DNA of 64,000 bases from Paramacrobiotus metropolitanus (taxonomy: Eukaryota > Tardigrada > Eutardigrada > Parachela > Macrobiotidae): positions 248,001-312,000 of the forward strand of contig NW_026570251.1 of assembly GCF_019649055.1 (NCBI RefSeq), in the 5' to 3' direction. Below are positions 1 through 64,000 of the stretch, piece by piece. A program made the translations under genes and the position numbers. Below the pieces are notes generated by a model. It was not told the origin of the DNA. It saw only the letters and a program-made list of their open reading frames with translations, and did not search any database. Within the stretch, counting starts at the first letter, position 1; the number at the start of each line of letters is the position of its first letter.

Positions 1-477
1 AATGCATGACAGCATGTATAGAAGCATGTAACACAGTTTTTGAGATACCTACAATAACATAACAAGTGATAATAAAACCAACAGGCTCAATCAGGCTGTC
101 TGCTGTCTCGCTGATTCCATTTGCCGATTAACCAAAAACAGACAAATTATATCTTATTTGCAGCAAGCGCAAGAGGAATGGAAACGAGAGGCTAAACATT
201 AGCGAAAAACTGAGGCTACAAACGGAATATTAAGAATCCGTATTTCAGTTCACAGAAGATAAAACGAGCGATACGTACGTCAAAGATGTGCTTTCAACGC
301 CTCGAGCTTGCATTCTGATCCCACTAGCACATTCTGTCTTTAACACGGGGGTTCGTGTTTGTGCTCGTATGATCATGCTTTATAGCTCCATAAGTTAATT
401 GTACATCTGAATTCTGAAATGAGTAAGCATGTGCTTGTATAACAACGAATACGACGACGACGACTATGTGCAAGGAA
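1..477. other. Left-edge sequence without a recognised gene
   Basis: I see no convincing coding exon, RNA gene or repeat here. The short open frames lack family features. The stretch lies just upstream of a decayed family A first exon and may hold its former promoter and 5' flank. Confidence 0.4.
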
Positions 478-1148
478 TACAGTGAATGTGGATGGGATTT
501 TGCGACACGGCGAGGATATTGACCTGATCGGTGTCCAGAACAAACGATGCCACCGGCTCACAACATCTGATCGTAGATTTCGGATGTCCTGCACGGCGGG
601 CGGTGCTGGGCAGCTACGAAAAAGCTTTTGACTGCTCATGTCGGAACATTGTACGAGACAACTGCTTAAAGCAAGCATGCCTTTAACCAATGGGCCAACA
701 AATCCCACAAATCCCTCCGTGGGTGCGGATAATCCCGACGTGGAGGCATTGCTCCGTGATCATCGAAATTCTTCTTGGAAATGGCATCCAGCGAAGGCGA
801 TCACGTTCCATTCGAATGACATACGTAATTAATCTCGCTTTGTTGGATGTGACGGTACCGAACCGTGTCATATTCGCGAACTATTGCCCGCAGACCAGTT
901 GCGGTTACCACTGTCGGACAAAGAACGCCGGCGTAGATAAGTTCAGCCAGGGAATTTTGTTAAGCGGTCGCCCATTTACCCTGATGGGTTTTGGACTTCC
1001 TTAAAGCCAGTAGTGACAGCACGATAGCGCCTGGAAATACAACAGCAGACTTGTATAGGCACCGCGCATATTACTTCTGTCGATAGCGAGACAGTGGATT
1101 TTATCTCCTGGAGAAGCGAAACACCGGTGGAGGAGGAGGTACCGTTAG
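478..1148 (+). pseudogene. Family A exon 1 relic (Tudor-like N-terminal module)
   Basis: Scattered pieces in all three frames match the first exon of the intact family A gene at 23496. They occur in order: a VDGILRHG-like start of the first Tudor-like repeat, VEALLRDHRNSSWKWHPAKA from the second, a LPADQLRLPLSDKERR-like segment, and DGFWTSLKP followed by an SVDSETVDF-like tail that ends in the acidic EE run seen before the exon 1 donor. The reading frame is broken many times and no F-box exon follows within 1.5 kb. This is a clearly dead, old copy. Its order and spacing agree with the intact gene, so homology is secure even though no single frame is long. Confidence 0.75.
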
Positions 1149-2607
1149 TTAAAGTACTGTTTAATGATCTTTGGTTCTCCTAATTTCGTTTAAACACATG
1201 TATAGCAATGGTTTGAAATAAATAAAAAAAAAGAGTACTGTATCCTAACCCTGAACTTGACGGAAATTTGTACAGTTCAGCCACGCGCACTTGTACGAGC
1301 TTATTCACCATTCACATACGCGGCTTGCAGCTAGTGCATGTCAGAACACGAATCGGCTGAACATTAAATCCGGCTATACAGCACAGTGTCTCTCATAGCG
1401 CACAAATTTTCGTCAAGTGCCAGGTTAGGGTGCAATATTCTACTTTTGCTGCATGTTGGCCTGCAGCATTCGGTACAACGCTTTCCTTCAGCAGAAAGTA
1501 AAACGTCGGTTAGTGTATGTCAAAAATTAATGGTTCATGATGATGCTGTTTTTTCCTGCCTAGGGGAGCCGAATTGCATATTACCGCCTTTTGGCAATCA
1601 ACGATTTTAAAAAAGAGAAGTTTCCCGAATGACCAGAGAATTTGACAGTGCCCACAGAAAGTAGTGAATGTACTGTCCTTTGGCACTGGCGTTGGCCGGC
1701 GACATAGTCACCCCCACTGACCTATGGTCAGCACAAGCTCACAAAAATCCTCTTTCTTAATTGAATGTTTTCATTGGGAAATCCCGATTTTTAGGAGGAA
1801 ACTCGCACTCCTTCGGGTACCGCCCACTGGAGGGTTAAACAAAAACATATTGGGTTACCTACGCTTTCGAGTGCTAAATAAGCATTGGCGCCGCGAAGCC
1901 GCTAAAAATTCCGTTTAGGATTAAGTTGGCAAACCAGTGCCGGTAAACATTGTAGAAAGTTTAGCCAAGTGCACAAAACAAACTTCGAGGCATGGATTTT
2001 ATGGATCACATCATTCATAGAAATTGATTGCATTGTTTGTTCATTGACGAAAACTGCTGTGATAGTTAACGACCGCATTTACAGATTTCAGTAAATCACT
2101 GTAAAGGTGTTTGCTAGTGTCATATGTGTAGTTGGATGGCCGCAAGATGTAATTACAAGTTCATATTAATCCGCATCGGCAATCCGCTAATCATCTCACT
2201 TAACTGGCGAAAGAAACGAAAACAAATATCAGATATCAGCCTGCAATTGCACCGATTACGGATTCATCGGAAAGCGTTTATCGTCCGTCCGGATGATTTG
2301 CCAGCAGGCGCCCGTTCATACAAGCCGAATACGATAGGAAAAAGGCCAACATCAGCTAGATCCATGGCATATCTATCCCGGAGTTAAACGAAATTTGAGG
2401 CAGATTGAATGGTAACGCGGAAATGCCTGCAGAAAGCATTCAGCTTCCGCTTTCCATGGCGCAGAGGTGTAAAACGCCCTATTGAATATAGCACCTGGGT
2501 GGGTGGGCGATGAATGTCTTTGTTGCGTTGCTGGCACTCCAGCCGCAGCAAAAATTATGCAATCTCTGTAAGATCAGATTTTATGTCTTTGTTGCGTCTG
2601 CGTTAAA
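1149..2607. other. Non-coding stretch upstream of the cyclase exon
   Basis: No exon is supported. The phrase tgtctttgttgcgt occurs twice, near 2515 and 2584. Around 2180-2400 there are short matches (atcatctcactt, gatccatggcatat) to the cyclase exon that begins at 2608, so part of this stretch could be a decayed duplicate of that exon. The matches are too short to annotate. Confidence 0.35.
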
Positions 2608-22187: not shown

Positions 22188-22290
22188 CAGAGCTTAGCCT
22201 ATGCCGCGATGTCCATGTGCGCTTAAGTTGCACATTATAGCAGTTCAGGAAAGTATTTTCGTGCGGGATGCCTTCACTTACTACGAACAA
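22188..22290 (+). pseudogene. Family A F-box exon fragment
   Basis: The words cagagctt, tgccgcgatgtccatgtgc and ttttcgtgcgggatgcc lie in the same order as in exon 2 of the intact gene (24520-24660) and of the copy at 33290-33430. They encode the ELCRDVHV and FVRDA parts just after the F-box. Sequence between them has been deleted and the frame is not kept. It is a small isolated relic about 1.3 kb upstream of the intact gene. Confidence 0.55.
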
Positions 22291-23495: not shown

Positions 23496-25366
23496 ATGCA
23501 TTTGTACGAAAACGGCAATCGATCAGCAATCTACAGATGGAACAGCGTGTACGTGGAATTAGATGGGATGCTGCAGCACGGCAATGTTATCGGCCTAGAA
23601 GAAGTCGCCGGCGGCTCAAAGCGCTTGATCGTGGATTTCGGATATCCGGACCAACGATCAGTGTCCATTGAATACGGGAAGATTCTTGATTGTTCCGATA
23701 AAATGAAGGCTGATGCAACGTGGACGTCTTCAAGCAACCAGCTGTCCGGTTTGCTGACCGGTGCGGATGATAGCGCCAGCGTGGAGGTACTGATCCGCGA
23801 TCGCCCCAGTCATCCATGGAAAAGGTATCCCTCCAAACTGCTTTTGCACCAGCACTGCATGGAAGATTTAACAAATGATGCTGTCGTGGAGGTGAGACTG
23901 GCCAACCACATCATTCACGAACTGCTTCCACGGAAACAAATGCGGTTGCCGCTGTCAAAAGAGGCCCGCCGGCTCAGAGTACTTCAACCTGGTCATTTTG
24001 TATTGCGCTCGTGCCAGTTCGGAGAAGGATTTTGGACTACGCTAGAACCCGAGATTGCAGCTCGTGTTCACCGCGAAATTGATGACACTCGCATCGTTTC
24101 TGTCGTGGGCGAGACGATGGTCTATCTCCAGCGGCACGCTGACAAACCACTGGAGGAGGAGAATTTAGTAAGTTGAAATTATGCTGCGTACAATTTCTTA
24201 AACCTAATTGTACAATACATTTGATTCTCAGCTAAAAATAAGAAGCCACAAAATTAAAGGCCGTTGCAGACAAGTTAATTTTCTTTTCTCGTGTAGAGCA
24301 AGATGTTTACATTGTTACTCGACAACATTCGCAACAGTATTAAAAGAGAAACCCGCTACAAGTCACCTATTGTGATGAAACAAGCGGAGACCGCGAGCAA
24401 CGACGAACTCTCTTTGAACCTGCCAGTGGAGTTACTGAAGGAAGTCTTTCTGATTCTGGATACCATCGAGCGGCAGCGTTGCCGGCGCATTTGTCCGCTG
24501 TGGAACGAAGTTATAACTTCTCCAGAGCTGTGCCGCGATGTCCATGTGCACCTTTATCCAAAGCAGACTAATATTTTTCCGAATTCCCATTACGGCGCTT
24601 TTGCAAGCATTTTCAAGCACTTTACATCGATGACGCGGACGGTTTTCGTAAGAGACGCCGTTATTTTTGGCATAGACAGTAAAGGACGGGAGATCCAAAG
24701 CAGCGCCGGTGCGGCGATCACCTGCATCCGGCACTTGCTGGAAACCACCGGTACTCGCCTGGATCTGGTGGTGCTCATCGACAGCAATACGTCGGTCTTC
24801 GGCCGTCACTGGAATTTGGGAGATTACTTTAACAACCTGGCGCAGGCATACACCGGAATGGCAGTGCGAGGCGCTCGCATAATTTGGAGGAATTGTTCAC
24901 TTTCCTACTGTGAAGAAAGGTACTCCATCGTGTTCCGCATTCCCCATGCAGGTTTCTGTCTGCGTACCATTAATGCGACGCATATTTGGAACTTGTTTGA
25001 GGAACACTTAGATTATGGAAAGCCACTAGAAGCGGATCTCACTGCGCAGTGGATAGAAGAACAGATCACGACAAATTCCACTAGAAACTGTGTTTCAGTT
25101 ATCCAGGTGATGTGCAGATCTTTAAGTAAAGCACAACTTCGTAAAAATATGTACATCAAGTGGCAATGACAATTCCTTTGCAGATACTGGACGCCTGTCA
25201 AAGCTGCGATCCGCGTCCACCTGCGTATTTGTTCAACCGGAAGTGGACGCTTGACAATCTGGGAAGCTTACAAATTGGAGGATTAAATCGGCTCTGTTTG
25301 TATGGACTGTCTAACTACATTTTAAAGTGGAGCGGAACATATTCAGCAAACGACCGCAAGCTGTGA
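23496..25366 (+). CDS. Intact Tudor-like/F-box fusion protein (family A)
   Basis: The CDS is join(23496..24167, 24297..25106, 25184..25366), 554 aa, with every junction in phase 0 and GT-AG introns of 129 and 77 bp. The start MHLYENG is conserved in three other copies. Residues 15-67 (VELDGMLQHGNVIGLEEV) and 93-153 (SVEVLIRDRPSHPWKRYPSK, then KQMRLPLS) look like paired Agenet/Tudor repeats. Residues 165-213 (ending RIVSVVGETMVYLQR) resemble the KH0 segment of FMRP. An F-box follows at about 263-303 (LPVELLKEVFLILDTIERQR, then CPLWNEV), then a 180-aa domain with a conserved FVRDA and a HIWNLFEEHLDY motif. Exon 3 encodes QSCDPRP and the LNRLCLYGL tail. An AATAAA lies at about 25384. F-boxes usually bind SKP1, so a role as SCF adaptor is inferred, with the Tudor-like part as candidate reader. 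It is the only undamaged copy in the window. Confidence 0.85.
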
Positions 25367-25859
25367 CAAGGAAAACCCAACCAATAAACTGCAGCGTTCT
25401 ATCGCCAAATTAGGATGTTTTGGTTTCACCTTTTGAACACAAAGAGCTTAGAAGTGCTCTAAAAACCGATACAGTCTTAAAAACGAAAATATAGCACATG
25501 TGTACTTAAAAGCGAGATTAGATTCCCGTAATCAGTATGACTTTTCCCGGTAATTCGCACCTGAACGGTTTAGCCAAAATCGATGTTGTGTTATGTCGCA
25601 GTGACAGTACCTCTGTAAAGTAAGCAAAAGTGTTAAGTGGATCTTACCACAATCTTGAACAATATTGAACCGTGCGTGGAGACTACGGATATTACCAATA
25701 CTCGTAGCCATCCAAAATATGATTAGTTTGCAAGGCTGATCAGATCGCCCTGCAAACTCATGCAACACGGAAATTATGCCCAGATGACCCGCTGAACTCA
25801 AACCTATACTCCTAGCGATGAACTCCCTCACTACGAGCGAAATCATCAGAACGCTTGTC

Positions 25860-26285
25860 CACGAACACTGAAAGGGTATCTGTTCCGCTTTCCGAACGCC
25901 GTTTTGGACTGCAGGATATTATTGCGACACGGATTTGGGATTTGTTTGATGAGCACCTGGACTATGAAGAACCGCTTGATGTGAAAGTTATTACACACTG
26001 TATAAATATGTGCTAGGTGAGGGCGAAATCCGTAAACAGCGCTCCAAAAAAAGGAATACGTACGAATCTTTGTTTGAATTAGATACATTATCCCTGGAAC
26101 GGCGGTAATTTGCAGATTCTGTGGGTCATTCAAAACTGCAATTCGCGCCCTCTACAAATTATTTCAAAGAATCGCTGACTTTAAGTAATATGGGTGGTTT
26201 CGGAACACAAAAGTTAAATCGACTGTGTGTGGATGCTCTGTCTCACATTACTAAAGTGGAGCAAAAGTATTCAAACACCGCTTAA
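25860..26285 (+). pseudogene. Family A relic (end of exon 2 and exon 3)
   Basis: The segment near 25925-25990 encodes ATRIWDLFDEHLDYEEPLDV, matching the HIWNLFEEHLDYGKPLEA region of the intact gene just upstream. Around 26120-26270 the third exon can be traced through the tgcaattcgcgccctctacaa and aagttaaatcgactgtgtgtgg words. Both are broken by frame changes. It is a tandem partial duplicate lying directly behind the intact gene. Confidence 0.65.
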
Positions 26286-26726: not shown

Positions 26727-29008
26727 CTAGTTCAGTGCTGACACATCCAGTTGCTGCAGGTCGACTTGATCCCAACGCTGTGGACCGCTGTCGAGAAGAA
26801 CGCTGTTAAATCTAACTCAACAGAAAACTTGAATTACTGTAGAATGGAGCCAGTGAAAACTAAGCCACACTGCGTAATTGCGTAAAGAGCCTACTCACAT
26901 TTGGAAAAATATGCGAATCCCGGTCCACTGCTCGGGATAGGCCAGCGTCTGCACCCATCCCATATGCGCCTCCGGGACCTTCTCCAACACCCGTTGCGTA
27001 ACGGCCGGGCAACTGTCGTTGGCCGCGGCTATAAAGCGTTGGCAATTCACAGTGGCGGCCTCCGTGTAGCGGAAGCGCACAATCGGAATAACTACATCCA
27101 AACGCCTTTCATCTGCCACCCGCAGGAATCCAGTTTCGCCTTCCGGCCAAGCCATTCCGGCAATGTGGAAAGACCCTTTCAATTGAAACTGGTCGCCGGT
27201 TCCATCGCAGACCGTAAAGTTGTCGAGAACGAACGTCTCACAGATGTCCATCGAGTACGATAGCCTACTGCATTCCGTCTGCCCGCTCCGCTCATCTACT
27301 CCTGGACACACGGCTCATCTACTCCTGGACACACGAACGAACCCCACTTCTCGGAAGTATTCTTGACGACGAGGAGCGGCAGGCGAACACCTTTGCCCTT
27401 CAGAATACGGTAAACTGCCAACATGTTCGACGTAAAGCCATTTTCGTTTTTGTTCAACTTTCTCTCATCAGGTGCTCTTTCGTCCACCAACGCAACAACA
27501 CGAGTTTTGGCGGTAATGGCTTGTTCCAGTATCGCTTTGAGCTTGTAACTCACAACCGCATTCAGAGAAGAATGAATCCAGCCATGCCAGTCTTCCTTGG
27601 GGAGCAGAGAAGGGATGCTAAAGATTATGTGGCGGTGCCGGGTGTGGTCGCCCGAAATCTGTCTCCACAACGCACACACCCTGCAAGCACAGATTATCAT
27701 AGAAAACAGAAGCCATGTAGTAATTTCAACACACGCGCCAATACCCTAGGGCAAAGCATGAGAGTCGTTGCAATCCTTACAGCAAAATATTAAAAAACGA
27801 AAAAGGAAGTGCAGAAACGTACGACTCCCGGAGCAATTACTAACTCGATATAATTAAAACTTGTCAGTATCAGCCAAATAACTGCAGCTTACGTACTGGC
27901 TCATTCGTATCTGAGAAAGGACATCCACGCTGAGAAAAATATTGGCAAGGATGGCAGTCGGTAGGCCAAAGATCACCAGATCTTCCGTTTCTGCAAAATA
28001 TAAAATCCAGTTCTCAGTAATTCTATCGCTGAAATAGTAGCACACAGAGCGCGCAGATCGTAGTTCGGAGAGTCCCCGCTTAAAAATAATTTTTGTATTT
28101 TTTTTGTAAAACTAGAAAAATCTGTCGGTACGCCAGCTACACTTACCGTACTGAGAAGGAGCCGTTGTCAAAGTCAGGGCCACAGTCCTACCGACTTGTG
28201 CAGATTCCCCTGAAAACTGCTCGGTGAGGTAACTTTCGCACACTTCCCATAAAGAATCTTCGTTCCAGAACATGCTGCGTCCCGGGGCGTCACCGTGCAC
28301 TTCGGAGCAAATGAATGTGACGGTGTCGATTCCAACACGCACAAACACCCGACAACCACCACAGGAAGCTTCGGCCCAATGACTGAAAGTTATTATGCAC
28401 GTTACATACAAATTATCCGCTCCCTCCGACCTTTTTAGCCGACAGCTGCTAATGCAAAGGTCATCCGGACCCAGAACAACAAGACAAGCGCCAACTAAAA
28501 ACTCGGCCATAAAATTCACATTACGCAACAGATGCGCCTGGTCGAAAGGCACGACATCCTTACGGTACATCAGCCCGCTGGGTTTATCCAAACACCTTCC
28601 TTCAACAGTCGATGCCGGCAGCTGGGTGGTTAACTGGCGCTGATGCACGATGCGGCGTTCCGGTGAGTATGTTTGGCTTAATTGATCCAGGCTGACAGCG
28701 GCTTCTCAACCATAGTAGCCGGTCGCAAAACATACGGTCCGCCGACTTCGTCTTGCAGCGCCACATGCACAGAACAACCAGGAAGGGATAACTGACGATT
28801 GAGATAAATCCAAAGATGCGGCCACAGATGTTTCGAATGAATCCATTCTGCTTTGATTGTGCTGGCACTTTGATAGTACTCGCCGTTAATATCCTGAAAG
28901 TATCAGCCACCAATGGCCGCTGTCGCGATGCACCAGCACCGTGTTGCCGTAGTTCATTTGGCACGCACCGGAGCGCAGCTCCCTGTAATAGCGGAATGTG
29001 GCGGGCAT
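26727..29008 (-). pseudogene. Family B Tudor-like/F-box gene, damaged
   Basis: Exons on the minus strand: 29008 down to about 28115 (start MPATFRYYRELRSGAC); about 27989-27898 with most of the F-box (LVIFGLPTAILANIFLSVDV); about 27682-26899, completing it with RVCALWRQI; and about 26808-26727 (RWDQVDLQQLDVSALN, stop TAG). The first exon has GNTVLVHRDSGHWWLI and a second repeat (VHVALQDEVGGPYV) that look Tudor-like. It then runs into a Cys-rich domain of unknown type (ASCGGCRVFVRVGIDTVTFI). Breaks: two frame changes in the first exon (near 28885 and 28705) and a perfect 23-bp tandem duplication at 27291-27336 that shifts the frame in the fourth coding block. The architecture parallels family A but the sequence is very different. 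Confidence 0.7.
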
Positions 29009-32154: not shown

Positions 32155-34152
32155 ATGCACTTATACGACAACGGAATACGATCATTGTACACATGGAACA
32201 GTGTGGACGTGGAACTGGATGGAATGCTGCAGCACGGCTATGTCATCGGCCTGGAAGATGTCAACGGCGTCTCGCCCCGCATGATTGTGGATTTTGAATG
32301 TCCCACACACCGGTCGGTACCCGTTGAATACGGGAAAGTCCTCGACTGCTCCAATAAGCTGAAGGTGGATGAAATGTGGATGCGGTGCAGCGACGCAAGC
32401 GACATAGAAGTATTAATGCGCGATCAGCCGAATCGTCCGTGGAAATGGTATCCCGGGAAAGTGCTCATACCCAGCTTCGATGGCCTGCCTAATTACGCTC
32501 TGGTGGAGGTACTGCTGACCAACTACAAAATCCGCGAACTCCTCCCCCATAGACAAATGCGGCTGCCGCTGTCGGGAGGAGCACGGCAACTCCGAGTGCT
32601 TCAAACCGACCATTATGTGGTGCTCTCCAGTGTGTTCCCGAAAGGATGTTGGAACAAGCTGGAGCCAACCATGGCACTGCAAGTTCGCCGTGAAATTCAG
32701 CGCATTTACTGGCTGCACATTGTGTCTGTATCTGGCGAAACGTTGACCTATCTCCAGGGGCGCTTCGAAAAATCGCCTCCGGAAGAGGATATGGTGAGAT
32801 AAAATGTTTTATTGCTTCCTATGGTGCAGCCGTGTGCGATTTATGATTTTTTAATCGCCGCATTTACTATGATTATTAGAAACTCCAGTTAGTATTTAGT
32901 AGGCAACTAAATGGGCATTGCAATTTCTTTGCTAAAAGAGGTTGAAAATGATGGTTTATGGCTTGCATATCCTATTTCTTACAGGGTAACAAGATTGAAC
33001 CACGAATTTAACCTCCCATCCACTTATATCCTATGAAACTGTCCATCTTTTTCTTCGGGTAGGTGAAGACGTTCGCAAGCTGTTGCGATCGCGTACGGAA
33101 GGATAGTGAAGGAAAAGTGGATGCTGGCAAACAGGACAACGACGCCAAGCGAAGAAAGACAGTAAACCACGACGCATACATTTGGGCGCTGCCACCGGAG
33201 CTTCTAAGGGAGATCTTCCACTCAATGGACACCATCGACCGGCTGCGCTGCCAACGCACCTGTCATCTGTGAGCAGAAATTCTCACCTCCCCCGAACTGT
33301 TCCGCGACGTCCACGTACATATGCGGGCAAAACAAGCGGATATTTTTCCGAATCCAAGTTACGGCGCTTACGTCTGCATCTTCAAATACATCACACCGAT
33401 GACGCGAACCGTTTTCGTGCGGGATGTCGAAACTTTCGATGTTGACAGTAAAGCCGGTGTAGCGATCAACTGTATTCAACAGGCGCTGGAAAACAGCGGT
33501 ACTTGTCCTATTCGATTAGTCTTGTTCGACAGCAACATGTCCATCGGGCGTTACTGGACTTTGGGGCGTTCCTTGGACAGTCTGCTGCAGGCTTATTCCA
33601 GGATAGCACCATGCTGCACTTGTATAATCTGGAGACATTGTGCTATTTCGTACTGCCAAGAAAACTGCAGCATTCTGCTCCGCATTGCAAATGCCCGTTT
33701 TAATCTGTGTACCATTAGCGCCACACAGATTTGGGACGTACTGGAAAATCATCTCGACTATAGCGAGCTTCTGGATGTGGAGCTGATTTCCCAGTGGATT
33801 GCAGACCAACTGATGGCAAAGTCCGCAAACCGTTGCGCTGACGTCATGCAGGTAAAGCTTCGATTTTGTATTTACTTTAGTAAAGTCATTAGCGTACACC
33901 AAGAACATCAGCGTTGCAATGAGCGGCGAACTTTTTTTGCAGATTTTGATGGCATTTCAGAGCTGCGATCCGCGTCCCTCCGCAAACTACTTTAACAAGA
34001 CGTGGACGATAGACAACCTGGACAGTTTGAACATCGGAAAATTAAATCGACTTTGTCTGTATACTCTATATTGCTACATGCAAAAGTGGAGCGTAAAAAC
34101 CAGTGTAAGCTGTAACCATGGATCCGGGAAGAAGAAACTCAAGGAACTATGA
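32155..34152 (+). pseudogene. Family A copy with a single in-frame stop in the F-box
   Basis: Exons are 32155..32793, 33063..33851 and 33943..34152, with all junctions in phase 0. This gives the same three-exon layout as the intact gene and a 545-codon frame. Exon 1 keeps both Tudor-like repeats (VELDGMLQHGYVIGLEDV; IEVLMRDQPNRPWKWYPGKV) and the KH0-like end (LHIVSVSGETLTYLQ). Exon 2 has the F-box LPPELLREIFHSMDTIDRLR. Exon 3 keeps QSCDPRPS and LNRLCLYTL. The only break is a TGA at 33270-33272, where the intact gene has Trp (PLWNEV; here HL-stop-AE). It is therefore a very recent pseudogene, a null allele, a sequencing error or a readthrough case. Confidence 0.8.
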
Positions 34153-34489: not shown

Positions 34490-36822
34490 TTTCTACTGTG
34501 GATTTTCACCAGACGAGCATTCGCTTGTTGCTGCTGGCGTAATTTTCGACGCCACACCGCCCACGAAGTACGCCAGAGAACAAAAAGACAGATGCGATTT
34601 AACTTCCAAACGTCCAGATTGCTCAGATCCTTTGTCGTCCAGCTTCAGTTCGAATAGTGCGCATAGGGACGCGGAGCGCGGGTCTGATACTCCTTCAGAA
34701 TCTGTAAACCAGCACCGCTGTAACATTACTCCACAGAAAATTTCAAGCAAAATTTTCTATCATACCTTGTAACCTTGATAACTCCGTCGCAGTGTGCTGG
34801 AGACTGGCCCCCAACCTGATCCGTGATCCACTGACCAATATGCTTTACCACATCCTCCGGATTCCACTGCCATTGTTGCACATAGACAAGATGCTGTTCC
34901 AACACGTTCCAAATCGTTGCGACATCGATGCTGTGGAGATTGAACGCCGCATGTGGAATGTGAAAAGGGATTCTGTATTTATCTGTACGGTAGGTCAGAG
35001 ACCAGTTGACCAAGGTGATGTGATGACACCACGACGTCATCTGGCTGTACATTTGCGTCAAGTGGTCAACATATGCCCGCAACGTCTATTTTGGTCCATA
35101 GACGCTAACCAGGCAGCGAGATACCACCAAGCGATCAATTTGACTGCTACTGCTTGCCACCACCTGTTGGATGTAATCGATGGTGTTCTCAACGTCTGTC
35201 CGACTGTCCGTTTTATTGACGATGTCATGAACCGCCGGATCACGGTCAAGACCGGCATCGTGTATGCAGATCAGGCGCGTATCCGGTGTAATATGCTTGA
35301 AGATGCATGCGTAGGCGCCGCAATGGTAGCTGCGAAGAACGTCGGGATGCTCATGATAATGCTGCACGTGAAGACCGCGGATCAGCGGCGGCGTGGTCAG
35401 AAGTTCTTCCCACAGTTGAGAGGCGCGTCGGCATCGCAGCCGGTCAATAGTGTCCAGACACTGGAAGATCTCAGTCAAAATTTCCAATGGTAGTGCTCAA
35501 ATTCGTTCGCCGCTGTTCACCGTCTCCTCCCACTTTGTATGTGTTGGGGGTCTTTCCAGGACCTGGTTTGCTGCTGAATCCGCAATAACGCGATATCGGT
35601 AGTATGCGAAAGGCCTCCGCTAAACAAAAAAATGACATTAGCTTAAACGTTATAAAACTTTTGTTTTTGCTGCAGTTTGACAAAGATAAAATAACGATAT
35701 TATATATCTGCAATCATATAATAGGCCTGCGGATATGAATATGACTATTACGGTATTCCCAATACATACTCTAGTGCTGTACTGCCATTTGAAATAACGT
35801 TTGCCACGGCCACTCTCTCAACCGACGAAAATATTTTTTTAGGTATACCCACGGGTCTTTTTTGAAAAAACGAAATTTTTGGTAGACGGGAGCCAGTGAT
35901 ATGGCCCTGGATATATGCCAGTATTTAGAATTATTATGTGCACAAGTATTTTATGAAGAATATTTCATGTACATTTTCTCTTCCGGGTACAAATATATAA
36001 AATCATTCTGATATTATATTATGTGCATATACAGTATTACCGCGAAACATGTGTGGGAGTGCGCAAACGTTAATTCCCTGGGTATACACCAGCCTCGGGC
36101 CATGTGCCGGGTCGCTTCCTTTGACTTACTTTTCGGTTATTCCACAACCGCATTTTGCAGCGTCGCTCTAAATAGGTCATCGAGTCGCCAACAATCGATA
36201 CAATGTGTATGTAACGGTTGGACTGTATTTCACGCCGCAACCGAATCGCCACTGCTGCCTCCAGTGTGATCCAAAATCCTGGGAAGCTATACGACCGCAG
36301 CTTATAATCTTTCGGCTTGATTATTCTGCGCTCGCGTTCCTCGTCCGATAGCGGTAACCGCATCTGCTGTTGGGTGAGAAGTTCGCGCATAGTGCGGGTG
36401 TTTACAGTCACATCTACCAAAGCCTGATTCGACGGATACTCGAAGCGTTAAAGTAGCGCTTTGGCGGGATACCATTTCCATGGATGACTGGGCTGGCCAC
36501 GGAGCAACACTTCCACGCTAGGACAATCGCCGTCCTCTGGCATCCGCGATAACGTGTTCGTCCGGCCGTAGTACTCATTGCTCAACCATCTGGGTCCTGT
36601 ATTTGCTGGAACAGTCGAGCACCTTTCCGTAGTCAACCGGCACCGACCGTAGTCCTGTGCACCCAAAATCCGCGATCAGACGCTGCGAGCCGCCTTCCAC
36701 TGTTTCTAGCCCAATAACATGCCCGTACTGCAGCATTCCATTTATTTCTACATCCACTGCATTCCATTCGTAAGCTCATTCCATTCGTAAGCTTGGCGGT
36801 GTGCGTACTCGTACAAATGCAT
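34490..36822 (-). pseudogene. Family A copy, minus strand, several lesions
   Basis: Exon 1 is about 36822-36130 (MHLYEYAHRQAYEWN; VEINGMLQYGHVIGLETV; VEVLLRGQPSHPWKWYPAKA; IHIVSIVGDSMTYLERR). Exon 2 is about 35622-34770 (LPLEILTEIFQCLDTIDRLR). Exon 3 starts at 34701. Lesions seen: a 17-bp tandem duplication at 36761-36794 that shifts the frame; a further frame change between the two Tudor-like repeats; a TAA near 36450; a TGA at the conserved Trp just before the F-box (I-stop-ALPLE); a TAG at 35086-35088 where relatives have Trp; and a TGA in exon 3. It faces the copy at 32155 tail to tail, only about 340 bp apart. Confidence 0.75.
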
Positions 36823-37980
36823 TTCGCCTCTCCAGCAAGAGTTTTTTTCTGACAGTTATAACAATAGCAGAACACCCCGAAGATCACAGAACGCGAAAAA
36901 TAGGTACATTACTACTTACATACTAATCAACTTTGTAAAATTAATGGATCAAGCACCTGCCTGTCGCGTAGCGTTTTATTCGAATTCACATGGCATAAGG
37001 TTTTCTTATTTGATGGACTGAAGTTCAAGACATGTTATTTGCGTTCGTTGCTTGCTTTCCCGTAAATTGCGATTGCCGCATTAAGTGTCATTTCTTTATA
37101 CTTGTTCAAAGTCTCCTGTTTAGTGCACATACGTAAGTGGTAGGGTGGTAGCTATCTATGCCTTATTCACTATCCCTTGCTATGCCGGATAGTGAATAAC
37201 TAGGCAGAACAGGAATGTAATGAGGTAATTACTTTTTAGTACGTGCAACGCATAGAGGCAAAGGCAGCGCAGCGCAATTTTTATTCGTTCTAATTTCGTT
37301 TTGCATAGGACGCCGACACCCTATTAGTATTTTCTGAATTTTTAAATCTAGAATTCTTTGAACTTCAATTTTTTTGGTTCTACCAACCAGAAACAAAAAT
37401 TATGCCGTTCAGTACTCAGAAGATAGAGCCGACTTCGCTTCAGCACGCATTGAATCCGCGGATATGATCTGCCAACTGATAACCATGCGATGCAGCATAT
37501 CCGCGATCCGAATTAAAGAAGATCCGTATCTCAGGTGCGCGAAGGGCGGCATCTTTGATGTGCGCGCGTAGACGTCATCGAACGTTCTCCCATACTTACT
37601 TTAGATGATAATTACACAAAAACAGTAAATAAAAAATTTAATAAAATACTGCACATTGTATTCTACTAGGTGCTGTAAGTCTCGTATTTTGGTGAATATG
37701 CGCTGATTTCAACTTTAATGGTAAGTGTCAAAAGTGGTACGAGGTGCAAAGGGTGATAAAAGTGGTATGCAGAGCCAAATTCTCTTAAATTTATTGCTAG
37801 CCTTTTCACTGCAGAATACCACATAAGTTGTAACAATGCATAAACGCGTTCTGAAATCGTGAAAGCGATTGCTACCATACATGTACAAAAATCCGGAGCT
37901 ATTGCGGGAGTGCCGGCATACTTTATTTAATCAATCTGCTATTCTAAGGGAAAGCGATTGAAATGGAACTGAGCAAGAGG
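36823..37980. other. Intergenic between family A copies
   Basis: No exon is recognised. The sequence around 37160-37200 has a small inverted pair, tagtgaata and tattcacta. It may have held the first exon of the following copy, but nothing traceable remains. Confidence 0.4.
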
Positions 37981-37984
37981 AAGC

Positions 37985-38990
37985 AGGAAACACCTGCGTA
38001 TCAGTTTGGACGCTGCCACTGGAACTTCTGAAAGAGATCTTTCTGTCACTGGACAACGTAGACCGGCTGCGCTGCCGACTTAACTGTGGGAGCAAATTCT
38101 CAACTCCCCAGAACTCTGCCGCGATGTCCACGTGCAGCTGCGGCCGACGCAATCCGATGCTTTTCTATATTCTGACCACTGTGCTTTTGCGTGCATCTTT
38201 AAGCTTGTCACTCCAATCACGCGAGCAATTTATATCCGGGATGCCATTTCGTACGCTTTGACCGGAAAAATACAGTTGCGCACGGGTAACGGCCATATTG
38301 CCCGTCACGCGGTCCGCTACATTCAGAAGGTGCTGGAAAGCACCGGCATCCATGTTAATCGTTTGACCCTATGCGACAGCAGGATCACTCGTCCTAAGCG
38401 AACTTTGGGGATTCAATTCGAGGATCGGGTGCCGGCATACTCCGCACTGGCATCGTGGTGCCCTCGCATAATGTGGAGGAATTGTTTATTGGTTGCGGTC
38501 CGAACACCATTCTGTTCCGCATTCCGATTTTTGTCTCAATATAATTAATACAGAACATATTTGGGATTTTTGTGACAAGCATCTCGTTTGTGAGAGCGGT
38601 TGGAAGTGCAACGTATCGCACAGTTGATTGCAGGCCACCAGAAGCAACCAGAAGCTGCACTAAAATTATTCAGGTGGCGTACAGATCCTTTTCCTGCAGA
38701 GTACAGTAGAGTATACTACCGTTAAAAGACGACAGTTTTGCAGGTTTTTAAGTTTTTCCAAAGCTGCGACCCGTGTCCTTCGGCTAACTGCTATACATAA
38801 TCCATATAATGCTAAAATTGCTACACCAATGCTATAATTGCCATACCTTCTGTAATCAACAATGGACACCAGAGAATATGCGCAGTTTGAAAGTTTTGAT
38901 AATAAATCGACTCTGTTTTTGTGCACTGCCTTACTACATGTTAAAGTGGGGAGGTAGAAAATGCTTTATTAGAAAGGATCGAAGAAGGAA
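37985..38990 (+). pseudogene. Family A copy lacking exon 1, frameshifted
   Basis: The F-box part reads LPLELLKEIFLSLDNVDRLR and then changes frame within the conserved RxxLW segment, continuing as LWEQILNSPELCRDVHVQLR, then TRAIYIRDA. A second loss of frame follows about 38500. Exon 3, after a tttgcag acceptor near 38743, carries FFQSCDPCPSAN, an inserted stretch with several stops, and then QQWTPENMRSLKVLIINRLC. No first exon is found upstream. Confidence 0.7.
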
Positions 38991-42469: not shown

Positions 42470-42924
42470 AAGTGCGAGCGTATGGTAAGTGCGGATACCA
42501 TACAAATTCGTTGTATGGTAGCTGACTTCCAAAGGCTCCTCTTAGTTCCCATACACTTTAACATCGTTAGAGCTAAGCTTTTCTAGCACAGAAAACATCG
42601 GAGAACGTGAATTTTGATGTTCCACAAGGATGCCATACCGTGTAGCATGAGAAAAAAAATAAATACGAAGACTTCTAGAAAACAACTGCGTTGGTTTTAA
42701 GGTATCCTTTACACTGTCACTCCGATGGCGGTGTCTAGCTACACGATAAGGTATGCTTAAGGTATGGTTATGGTGTCTTTTGCGAAAAGCCTCTAATGTT
42801 GGGCATTAAACACACTATGGCAAGCTAAACTCCGCAGAAAGAATATTTGTTGCCTTTATTCCAGTGATGAATTTAAGGGAACGGGTGCAAGCACTTCATC
42901 GAAGTGGAACCACTTCTAAGGTCG
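42470..42924. other. Palindrome-rich flank of the LINE target
   Basis: The first 80 bp contain further words related to the target (gcgtatggtaagtgcgg, ataccatac, gtatggta), suggesting an older hairpin repeat. The remainder shows no gene. Confidence 0.45.
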
Positions 42925-43215
42925 GCTAGGAATATCGATGTTCATTACCTCCACTTCAAATCCAGCCTCTGCGCCTCCGGGCGTACACAGTATAGGCTTT
43001 TCGCTGCCTTTGTAACCCACAAAATTGTAAGAACTTAAGACTGTCTTCATAGGAGCGCTAGTGAACCATCCCGTAATTTATTGGGGCTAACCGTCCTGTC
43101 GTGAATCCGAAATCAACAAGAGACGCTCCATGTTGTATCCACCGTTTTCTAGCCCTGTAACGTAACCATGCAGCAGTATTCCATCCACTTCCACATCCAA
43201 TCCATTCCATTCCTA
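42925..43215 (-). pseudogene. Family A exon 1 fragment plus an unassigned short frame
   Basis: Minus-strand sequence near 43215-43090 encodes LDVEVDGILLHGYVTGLENG, a clear match to the first Tudor-like repeat, and then loses frame. Closer to 42925 another minus frame reads YNFVGYKGSEKPILCTPGG and ends EVEVMNIDIPSRP before a stop. I do not recognise it. It could be the last exon of an unrelated gene or a chance frame. Confidence 0.5.
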
Positions 43216-43715
43216 TTCAGAATATTGCAGATTGTTTTCGTGCAATTACTGAGACATGTCACATATAATCGCGTTTTAAAAAAAACAATTTTTCCTCATA
43301 AATAAAAAGGAAATGTTGGTGGTAATGACGACAATGATTTATACAGTAGGGATGGGGTAGTAACAATCCTTATAACTGCAGGCCGTCGTTCTACACGCAG
43401 ATTTACCGTTCAGGTGTAAACTGGCATGTGATTCCATCAGCCCATCTAATTCTGCAGATATAGCGTTAATGGTTATGCGATTTTATTTCAAACCATCACT
43501 TAAACACGTGTTAGAAACAGTTACAAAACCAACAGCTCGTTAAACATTTCCGCTTTCTCCACCATGCCCAAAACAGAAACCTCGTTACCACGCTGTACCT
43601 CTATAGACAAACGCTGTCAAAGAAATTCGTGCGAGCGGGCTGTTTTCGTGCTAGCGTTAATCGGTCAAGTTTTCTCCTTATGAGCAGCTGATCGTTTCCG
43701 CTCATCTTGTGTGTC
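43216..43715. other. Intergenic
   Basis: No gene or clear repeat is seen. A minus frame at 43601-43888 overlaps the dispersed repeat and is not credible. Confidence 0.4.
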
Positions 43716-51126: not shown

Positions 51127-51529
51127 TCATCGACTTATTCGTTGCGGGAATTTGCTTTTATCTTCCTGCTCTGTGATTTTGCTAGTCCAGCTTTCGAGTG
51201 TTCCACTTCGAAGTGGTTTTCGATCCCCTAATACGCGCCAGAGAGTATATATGCAAATCCGATTCAACTTCCGAATGGGCAAATTGTCCAAATCCTCCAC
51301 GATCCACAACCGGTTAAAATAATGCGCAGAAGGACGCGGGTCGCAGCTCTGATAAGCATTCAGTATCTGAAAACCAGCAACGATGTAGCGCTAACGCTAA
51401 AACAGAGAACGCTGTTTGCAGTTATACCTTGATGATTTTGTTATACTTTTTTGGAAATTTTGCCCCAGTCTTATTCGCCACCCAGCGTTCAATATTCTCT
51501 ATAGCATATTCCAGATCAAATTCCCACTG

Positions 51530-60586: not shown

Positions 60587-61211
60587 TGTAACGCCGCGCT
60601 TCTCTGTGCACGTGTACTTGTATATATACAGTACATATGTGTCCACATAATACCCGGAAGTGGATCGATACCGATTACATATGTGCACCGCATCGATTAC
60701 GTCTTCAAGGGCGCTATCCCGCATATCCGCATATCCGCATGCATATTCCCTTATCTAATTAGGCCTAAGTGCTGATGTGAGAACTGTGTCATTAACCGTC
60801 ACTTAGTGTGTATGTTGTATATGTACTCTGTACATGAGTTACTACCGTCTTAATGGAAACTGGGTGTGTTTGTGCAAGTGTTGGCATTTTATGACTTTCC
60901 ATTTTATCCTGTGTGTAGAATCGTGGATTTTCTCTTATAAGTCTAATGCTTTTCTCAGTTGTAAAGTCAGTAGTGTTTTTCTTAAGTTTTGCTTTGGATG
61001 TGAGTTTAGCATAATTCAATCTTTCTTGTTATTTGTTGTGTGAGTAAAGCTACAAAAACACCGTTGTCTTAGTGTACACGGTACACTGAAGATAGGCTAG
61101 TTGCACAGAGTAATTATCGATCCATCTTTATTCTCCCATTTCCCTGCGCGGATAAACGTTATCGCGCAGTCAGCAATCACACACAGTATCCACCACGTGT
61201 TAAGACTAACA
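60587..61211 (+). repeat. Right LTR of the gypsy element
   Basis: 625 bp, near-identical to the left LTR. It is preceded by the purine tract and followed by ACTG. Confidence 0.92.
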
Positions 61212-62252
61212 ACTGCTTTACATCGGCCAAATGCTGTTTCAGCACACCCAAAACTGTTTGCGCATCGATGTCATGGGGATCGAACATCGCACGGGGAATG
61301 CGGAAAGGAAATGCGGTTTGCGGCTAACCGAATGCCGAAAGGATGGCATGTAAAAGACCAGTTGATCCAGGCTATGCGACGGCACCACGACGCCAGATTC
61401 GAACATTCATTCACGAGATGGTCAACGTACCTCCACAACGTCCATTCACGCTCATGAACTTGTATGGGGTAATACGACACCACCAAACGATCGATGTAAA
61501 CTTTGCGAATCTCCAGTATATGGCGAATAAATTTAATAGCATCGCCGACATTTGTGCGACTGCGCAGATAGTAGATGTGCGCAGTGTCCGTGTCCCGTAA
61601 GTAAATTGTGCGCGTAGCCGGTGTAATGCACTTGAAGATGCAAACGAATGCGCCGTAAGTTTCAACTGAATTACTGTCAGGAAAGTATTTATGCGGCAGA
61701 TGTACACGAACATATGGCGAAGCTCCGGCAGGCTAAGAATTTGTTCCCACAATTGGCAGGTCCGCCGGCACCGCTGCCGGTCGATGTTGTCCAATGACTG
61801 GAAAACCTCTGTCACAATTTACGGTGATAGTTGCGACATTTTTTCGCTGTTGTATATTGCTTTTTCTTCCCCGCTAAACGTGATTTCACTTATTCCGAAA
61901 ATGTTTTTTCCTATTAATTCGGCAAGGGTGCAATCGCCGTGGGATGCCAGCACCTTTCCCTGTAACAAAAGAGAGTTCGCCTTGTTTCACCTCTAGGACA
62001 ATTCGTTTAACTGCAACAAAATCTGTCGCAACAAGCATCGCATATTATAAAAAGTGCGAGGTTTTAATCGGTCAAAAGGCACTTGCGGATCATTATGCAC
62101 TAACCGACCCCAAAATGTTAACCCGATGATTTGTAACCGGTAAAACCATCCGGACAGGGAAACCGTCCACCGGACGCTTTTGCATGGAAGCCGGCAAAAC
62201 TGTCCAGCAGACAAAGAAAAAATATTTACACTACACTGATAAACAGAAGAAA

Positions 62253-62398
62253 TACAAGCCCGTCCAACAACTTTTTGACCTCTGTAAGCGGGAATTTAAA
62301 GAAAGTGGGCTTGAGCGCGATTTATGCGCGCGATTTATTGTGCGCGATTTATATGCGCTGCGCTTACAGCGGTCAAAGAGTTGTTGGACGGGCTTGTA
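62253..62398. mobile_element. 146-bp hairpin MITE in a family A intron
   Basis: Outer 38-bp arms tacaagcccgtccaacaact...taagcg and their inverted partner (62361-62398) differ at only two positions. The core contains gcgcgatttat-type repeats. Ends of TA followed by CAAGCCCG would fit a TA target duplication, as used by Tc1/mariner-like elements, but the outer flanks (gaagaa on both sides) leave other readings open. It lies between exons 1 and 2 of the interrupted family A gene. Confidence 0.75.
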
Positions 62399-63280
62399 GA
62401 AGAAGAAATATTTACAAGCCTTCGAAAAAAACCCAACAATGCGAAACCCAAGAAAGCCCATCATGAAATCTGAAAAACATAAGACTGTAAGCCGTACCGG
62501 CAAGGATGTTGTCAGAAAACAAAGCAGGTTCGGAACTGGGAATTAGCTACATATGTGTTGGTCGGGCAGTAAAAGTGAGGCAAGAGAACCTCCGTGCTGA
62601 CACCTTCCTACTGCTTTGTTAGGCGTCACCGGCCAATCACATCGTTGCAGATAGGTCACCGTTTCACCAACGACCGAAACAATATGCATCCAGAAGGTAT
62701 ATTGCATTCTGCGCTGTAGTACAACTGCCAACGCAGGCTCAAACGCGGTCCAAAAACAGTTTTCAGGAAGGTTGCACGACTGCAGTGTAAAATGGCCTGG
62801 CGAAATGACTCTGCGCTGCCGTTGTTCGCCTGTGAGCGGTAGCCGCATTTGCCTCTGGCGAAGCAGCTCGCGGATGTTATAGTTGGGCAACTTAATCTTC
62901 ACCAGAGCGCAGTCAGGCAAATACTTGAAGGAAGGCTCGATGACTTTGGCGAGATACCATTTCCACGGTCGATCAGGATGATCGCGGAACAGCACTTCTA
63001 TTTCGGAATACTTAGCGTACGCAGGCGCACCATTGTCGGATTGGCTCAACCAGTTACATTGGACTTTATGTTTGTAGGAACACTCAAGCACCTTTCCGTA
63101 ATCAAAGGGCACCGATCGCTGTCCCGGACATTCAAAATCTACTAGCAAACGCTGCGGGCTGCCTTCGACATCTTCCAGCCCGACAATACGACCGTGCTGC
63201 AGCATTCCATCAACATCTACGTCCACCGTATTCCATCCGTGTATTCGTAATCGCGGCACATTCTTTTCGTACACATGCAT

Positions 63281-64000
63281 TGTACGATGTATCGACACGA
63301 ATGGAGTTGATTATAAAACGAGAAAAACTATTGCTATCTTCGCCAGCAAAGAAGCACTTGGCCAAACAAAAAAATCTATAAGAAGGTTCTCATATAAAAT
63401 TATAGTATAAAAACGTGGCTTCGCGTGAAAAACGTTAAATTTTCCGCGCTGTTTTTTTTGTTTCTAAACACGTAAACCATACGGTGTTTAAAATACAAAA
63501 TACCCAGGAGTAATGTTGTTAAATAAATTAAAACAGTTCGTTCAAATTACCATCGCTACTCCGCCGTGCAAAGAATTATGAGAGTGACATTGCGTGTTAT
63601 TGCACATTTACTTGAGGGTAGAGTTTCGATTGGCTTGCGAGGCGGTGTTATTTTTAATTACATGTTGAGTTGGATGCATGATGTTCTCGTGATATACACC
63701 TTATCATTTCCACACCGATAGTCTCGTACACAGCACACTGCACTGCACAAAAACGCATTGCTTACTGTTAATGATCAACAGATAACTGACTGATAGAGCG
63801 AACTGATTGTGAAGTAATGTAACGTGTGCAACGATTAACCACATCACCATGCGAGCGCGAGCCCCCGCACCACCGGAAAGCGATTTGTGAAATTGGATAA
63901 GCTAGTTGAAAAGGGTGACCATGTCACACCTGCGCGCTGTAACTCGACAAGTCACTCCGACGGAAGTTTTCCGGAAACGAAGGGGGTCTTAAATCAGTTT
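63281..64000. other. Right-edge flank
   Basis: This is probably the promoter-side flank of the family A gene on the minus strand. No further gene is seen. Confidence 0.4.

Follow-up and report, generated by a model that had tools for sequence, protein, structure and literature searches.

How does an F-box gene come to begin with what resembles the N-terminal arm of the fragile-X protein FMRP? The question is raised by the gene at 23496..25366 of the window (the whole 64-kb stretch of DNA that was analysed), which lies in the 169.8-Mb assembly of the tardigrade Paramacrobiotus metropolitanus in which our genome searches were made. The gene is one of a very large family in this genome, and it probably encodes an F-box protein with a diverged FMRP/FXR N-terminal arm, an adaptor of SKP1-CUL1-F-box (SCF) ubiquitin ligases whose family expanded by clustered copies.

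Gene structure and the F-box

The original prediction, made from the window alone, placed an intact gene at these coordinates and was right in this: the spliced frame runs uninterrupted from the ATG (23496) to the stop codon (ending at 25366), and its product is identical (100% over 100% of its length) to LOC129588775, an uncharacterised NCBI protein of 554 residues. The parts of the gene, all on the + strand, are as follows.

23496..24167, +, exon 1, residues 1-224, with the FMRP-N-terminal-like module (open frame, NCBI protein, predicted fold, phase-0 donors)
23538..23693, +, Tudor-like barrel 1, residues 15-66 (AlphaFold2 strands; pairwise identity)
23778..23945, +, Tudor-like barrel 2, residues 95-150 (AlphaFold2 strands; profile-profile match to the second FMRP Tudor, Tud2, in register)
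23988..24167, +, KH0-like unit, residues 165-224 (AlphaFold2; covered by the 4ova, 4qvz and 4qw2 alignments)
24168..24296, +, intron 1, GT..AG (splice agrees with the NCBI protein)
24297..25106, +, exon 2, residues 225-494, which takes in the linker helix, the F-box and most of the C-terminal domain
24414..24536, +, F-box, residues 264-304 (PF00646)
24537..25106, +, first part of the C-terminal alpha/beta domain, residues 305-494 (AlphaFold2 confidence; weak Foldseek matches)
25107..25183, +, intron 2, GT..AG
25184..25366, +, exon 3, residues 495-554 and stop codon (NCBI protein match)

The F-box fold, expected at residues 263-303, has a sequence match to Pfam PF00646 at residues 264-304 (E-value 3.5e-8, 33.5 bits, cut-off 20.5), and the stretch is helical in the AlphaFold2 model (helices at 268-277, 280-289, 291-297 and 300-303). 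Its fusion to the proposed module is likewise seen in the sequence. In alignment A4, composed of 22 proteins and two exon-1 pieces from the window, 22 of the 24 rows have an F-box match at E ≤ 0.01, and some A4 F-boxes fall below the curated cut-off (P0011 with 16.7 bits, P0012 with 20.2 bits).

Because module and F-box stand on different exons here, one could suppose two separate genes falsely joined by gene prediction. We rejected this as highly improbable, since P0002 (L025) holds both in one frame with no intron between them (F-box E-value 1.6e-7), L015 and L026 do likewise (F-box by eye), the order of module then F-box recurs across the genome, and 17 of 24 copies have a phase-0 splice donor no more than 40 bases from where the module ends; the other seven comprise the three intronless copies and four (L012, L021, L032, L038) without a donor there. 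A pseudogene reading of the window gene was also rejected, its frame being open and the ratio of nonsynonymous to synonymous substitution rates (dN/dS) being below 1 in its relatives.

The C-terminal block was modelled with a predicted local distance difference test score (pLDDT) of 53-86 over residues 301-360 and 77-92 over 361-540. No Pfam leucine-rich repeat (LRR) was found in the window protein up to E 10, and Foldseek gave weak matches to F-box/LRR ligase chains, namely 4i6j_B (E 4.9e-3), which we take to be FBXL3, and 1fs2_A (E 2.9e-2), presumably SKP2, the model residues covered not being given. We make no claim on the C-terminal fold, since the comparison VIA-align hardly reached beyond residue 163 other than in its FMRP rows. 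Known F-box adaptors (FBXL3, SKP2, the nematode expansions) likewise place an alpha/beta domain after the F-box and form large clustered families, whereas the window family adds the FMRP-like module in front, and its Foldseek matches to FBXL3 and SKP2 are weak.

The N-terminal arm and its likeness to FMRP

The original prediction read two repeats in exon 1 as the paired Tudor repeats of FMRP and placed KH0 at the RIVSVVGETMVYLQ end, with a structure prediction of residues 1-224 as the check on the Tudor barrels. The AlphaFold2 model bears out this layout. Two barrels are predicted, the first with strands at 17-22, 25-35, 43-50, 53-59 and 63-65 and the second at 95-100, 109-117, 128-135 and 138-145, and both quoted repeats correspond to the opening strands of these barrels. 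Directly after them a third unit is predicted in the KH0-like order beta-alpha-beta-beta-alpha (strand 168-174, helix 185-195, strands 200-204 and 207-213, helix 221-244; pLDDT of the block about 62-89), in which the RIVSVVGETMVYLQ stretch forms the strand pair 200-204 and 207-213, and whose last helix extends into exon 2. A model from the single sequence, with a pLDDT of 38, was left out of the fold search.

FMRP ranked first among PDB chains in both fold comparisons of the predicted N-terminal part, and the FMRP alignments cover the KH0-like unit; 4ova_C, for example, aligns over model residues 14-242 (root-mean-square deviation 7.8). With moderate confidence, which rests on the model, we conclude that the arm has the three-unit fold Tudor 1-Tudor 2-KH0 with FMRP as its closest match. 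The FMRP/FXR N-terminal domain (4qvz, 4qw2, 4ova, 3o8v) has the same unit order and fold as predicted here, while the window family differs in a variable insert between the barrels and in an identity of just 11-20%. One could instead see a generic Royal-family tandem Tudor/Agenet pair, as in UHRF1, SGF29 or plant AGDP, that came to look like FMRP by convergence. We consider this unlikely: Foldseek puts FMRP chains well in front (E 1.1e-7 versus 3.1e-3), their rows also cover the third unit, and two sister exons and a sister family, described below, carry FMRP-type signals of their own.

Exon 1 of the window gene has no Pfam match and no match to PDB sequences, both up to E 10, so the FMRP likeness is invisible to single-sequence searches. 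For a family profile (A2) we used 24 of the 30 fetched loci L009-L038; L011, L017, L018, L030, L034 and L036 were truncated, interrupted or partly aligning and were excluded. Up to E 10 the Pfam model Tudor_FRX1 picked up none of the exon-1 sequences of these 24 members, and a PDB profile search with the family returned four unrelated sequences alone (E ≥ 0.83). Direct profile comparison gave a signal: a 24-member profile near-identical to A2 matched tardigrade FMR1 alone with P 1.2e-5 (81% probability), and A2 matched a three-sequence FMRP/FXR1 profile with P 6.8e-5 (63% probability) and Tud2 in register. A repeat comparison scored 34.6 (49%), against a maximum of 21.5 in 100 column shuffles and 19.2 for a reversed profile. 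Outside Tud2, hhalign alignments that were forced to be global yielded no residue pairing that could be used.

The tardigrade FMR1 used here is a separate, ordinary gene (L039, G000:C5:3432312-3435452; Tudor_FRX1 49.5 bits) with an open frame of 610 residues in the fetched piece, KH and RGG sequence by eye, and an N-terminal 215 residues that match PDB 4qw2 at E 9.3e-37. Since this gene exists, and since the full window protein matches F-box families alone in Pfam up to E 10, with no KH1, KH2 or RGG, the window protein is not the FMR1 orthologue.

Tudor_FRX1 further matches 26 genome places up to E 10, three of which exceed its cut-off of 25.9 bits. Eight regions were fetched, with L060 and L062 not included in the analysis; L055-L058 are four of the 26 places. 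L055 (27.3 bits) has no F-box match downstream. L056 (24.1 bits) is followed by an F-box that, spliced, reaches 20.4 bits (cut-off 20.5), L057 (30.5 bits) by an F-box-like sequence of 14.9 bits (cut-off 24.3), and L058 (16.4 bits) by an intron-split F-box that exceeds the cut-off once spliced (23.1 bits). Each half is therefore above its cut-off in some of these sister genes, and none of the four passes both, which weighs against the proposed kinship. Two sister exons do exceed the cut-off of the FMRP-specific Tudor_FRX1, and the L048/L058 family (at least 59 matches, 140 of 154 candidates scored) aligns through its five-member profile with the two Tudors of FMRP (score 40.9, 74%, 121 columns) and also with the window family (34.5, 37%, 106 columns), both comparisons being without their own shuffle control; these are the points that we set against a generic Tudor pair. 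With moderate strength, these sister groups appear to bridge the window gene to FMRP.

Among neighbouring observations, L049-L054, L058 and L059 (contigs C242, C36 and C87 of G000) belong to this second family of at least 59 matches, which has an FMRP-N-like module of its own and resembles the window family in the C-terminal region; the intron-split F-box is seen in L058 only.

Family size, selection and binding-pocket residues

With 150 of 675 candidates scored, the module has at least 153 genome matches at E ≤ 1e-3, far too many for chance, and 126 of the 150 that were listed are free of internal stops. The second exon matches at least 143 places (142 of 1013 candidates scored). Of the 150 listed modules, 93 are followed on their own strand by a second-exon match no more than 3 kb away, against control counts of 9 (upstream) and 7 (opposite strand); this count uses all 143 listed exon-2 matches and not the F-box-only list (61 of 150 rows). 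For the F-box model itself there are 1080 genome candidates, and each of the 150 scored exceeds the cut-off. Among the matches listed, many F-box sequences are on contigs without a listed module. There are four Skp1 places in the genome, from which it follows that the SCF core is present and has not been expanded alongside the adaptors. Protein searches of limited reach listed no relative outside P. metropolitanus: the database searches returned 5 and 4 proteins, and a region search 19 of 109 candidates, all from this species.

Mean pairwise identity across the 22 proteins is highest, among seven regions, in Tud1 (0.58), followed by the F-box (0.56) and Tud2 (0.46); the KH0-like part has 0.31, and of the two C-terminal parts one has 0.31 and the other 0.40. 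These identities indicate that Tud1 and the F-box are alike held by selection while the rest changes more. In the eight closest module pairs (seven loci, the window gene not among them) dN/dS is 0.20-0.35; the inter-barrel linker is freer (up to 0.91), and every part of the module stays below 1.

The original prediction also suggested methyl-marked or RNA-bound partners, and for the methyl mark the outcome is divided. According to PMC5430443, FMRP mutated at F32 or Y96 binds less well to RGG proteins, FUS and LSM14A among them, and PMC2970552 describes FXR Tud2 as binding trimethyl-lysine. The Tud2 pocket tyrosine, FMRP Y96, is not kept in the window family, unlike in FMRP: its position is V133 in the window protein, and 21 of the 24 members have Val or Ile there, which counts against a fully FMRP-like arm and makes methyl reading through Tud2 unlikely, as judged from the residues. 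Tardigrade FMR1 itself has Ile at the human Y96 position. The Tud1 pocket phenylalanine F32, on the other hand, seems to be retained as F48, which is Phe or Tyr in 24 of 24 A2 members (a pairing made by strand order, with no tool alignment). W110 is Trp in 23 of 24 members and Arg in the window gene. FXR1 E65 and R112, which PMC2970552 assigns to an interdomain lock, have counterparts in E97 (Glu in 19 of 24) and R150 (Arg in 22 of 24), the FMR1-to-FXR1 numbering being ours.

Another reading holds that this is an ordinary fast-expanding F-box family in which the barrels are a spacer without a reader role and the C-terminal domain alone chooses targets. The very many F-box candidates, the variable C-terminal domain and the lost Tud2 tyrosine would all fit it, but a spacer would hardly be expected to contain the most conserved region, slightly ahead of the F-box itself, to show dN/dS below 1 in each of its parts, or to keep an aromatic residue throughout A2 at the position paired with the Tud1 pocket phenylalanine; we regard it as possible though rather doubtful.

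Proposed function and copies within the window

F-boxes dock on SKP1 and thereby bring their proteins into SCF ligases. From the F-box, docking on SKP1-CUL1 is predicted for the window protein too, which would make it a substrate adaptor of an SCF ligase. From the conserved Tudor pair, one would expect all members to share a kind of partner, and the pair might grip a family-wide FMRP-type protein or ribonucleoprotein, while the fast-diverging C-terminal domain and KH0-like unit could give each copy its own target, in parallel with other exploded animal F-box families. The variable C-terminal domain, perhaps F-box/LRR-ligase-like, is the better candidate for target choice. As to origin, an FMRP-type N-terminus probably became attached to an F-box gene, with clustered expansion in this tardigrade lineage thereafter. 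Nothing pointed to a viral or prokaryotic source, although no search aimed at one was made. We entertain only tentatively a bolder version, in which an FMR1-type N-terminus was copied without KH1, KH2 and RGG, fused to an F-box and raised to some 150-200 or more copies, the Tudors docking ribonucleoproteins and the C-termini picking victims in a clade-specific quality-control or defence system.

To our knowledge, the FMRP N-terminal domain has been regarded as private to FMR1/FXR proteins, and on the bolder version the window family would be the largest known reuse of it. A tandem Tudor and a ubiquitin-ligase link also meet in UHRF1, a RING-type ligase that has PHD and SRA domains as well. UHRF1 is named an E3 in PMC2970552; the link in the window family is instead an F-box, i.e., to a multi-subunit ligase. 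SCF-Fbxo4/Fxr1, as described in PMC5688124, also ties an F-box protein to the fragile-X family, but in that system the substrate is the fragile-X protein itself, whereas here its predicted N-terminal fold sits in the putative adaptor. The original prediction knew of no described family with this architecture, and we found none uniting an F-box with an FMRP-type N-terminus in the literature searched, tardigrade and tandem Tudor/SKP1 topics included; a word search of the main text of two P. metropolitanus papers (PMC11191345, PMC8277472) found neither F-box nor Tudor. The parts are all known, and what appears to be new is their union, a fragile-X-type arm at the N-terminus of F-box proteins. A predicted FMRP-N-terminal fold is thereby coupled to a ubiquitin-ligase adaptor motif in one animal, and this three-part fold, multiplied outside FMR1/FXR, offers many natural variants with which to probe what KH0 and the Tudor pair recognise. 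Such a fusion would also be a new way for an exploding F-box family to acquire a ready-made interaction arm.

The window holds twelve clusters of family matches (tblastn), including the following.

464..1162, +, divergent module copy (tblastn E 7.8e-20, 32% identity)
25855..26273, +, copy fragment, C-terminal part only (tblastn E 9.8e-9)
32155..34146, +, paralogue with module at 32155-32853 and F-box/C-terminal exon at 33063-34146 (one TGA in the match)
34540..36822, -, paralogue with stops in both matched exons, likely a pseudogene
37839..38955, +, another copy, matched in its F-box/C-terminal part (with one TAA)
42907-43245 and 51133-51516, further family matches (tblastn)
61180..63283, -, paralogue with module at 62570-63283 and F-box/C-terminal part at 61180-61935

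The cluster is a mixture spread over both strands: some copies look intact, others contain stops, and there are loose fragments as well. By eye, 22190-22222 resembles coding sequence of the F-box end (about 24524-24555), perhaps a decayed copy or chance; tblastn did not recover it at E 1e-4. Downstream of the gene, minus-strand open frames at 26895-28111 resemble exons of another gene.
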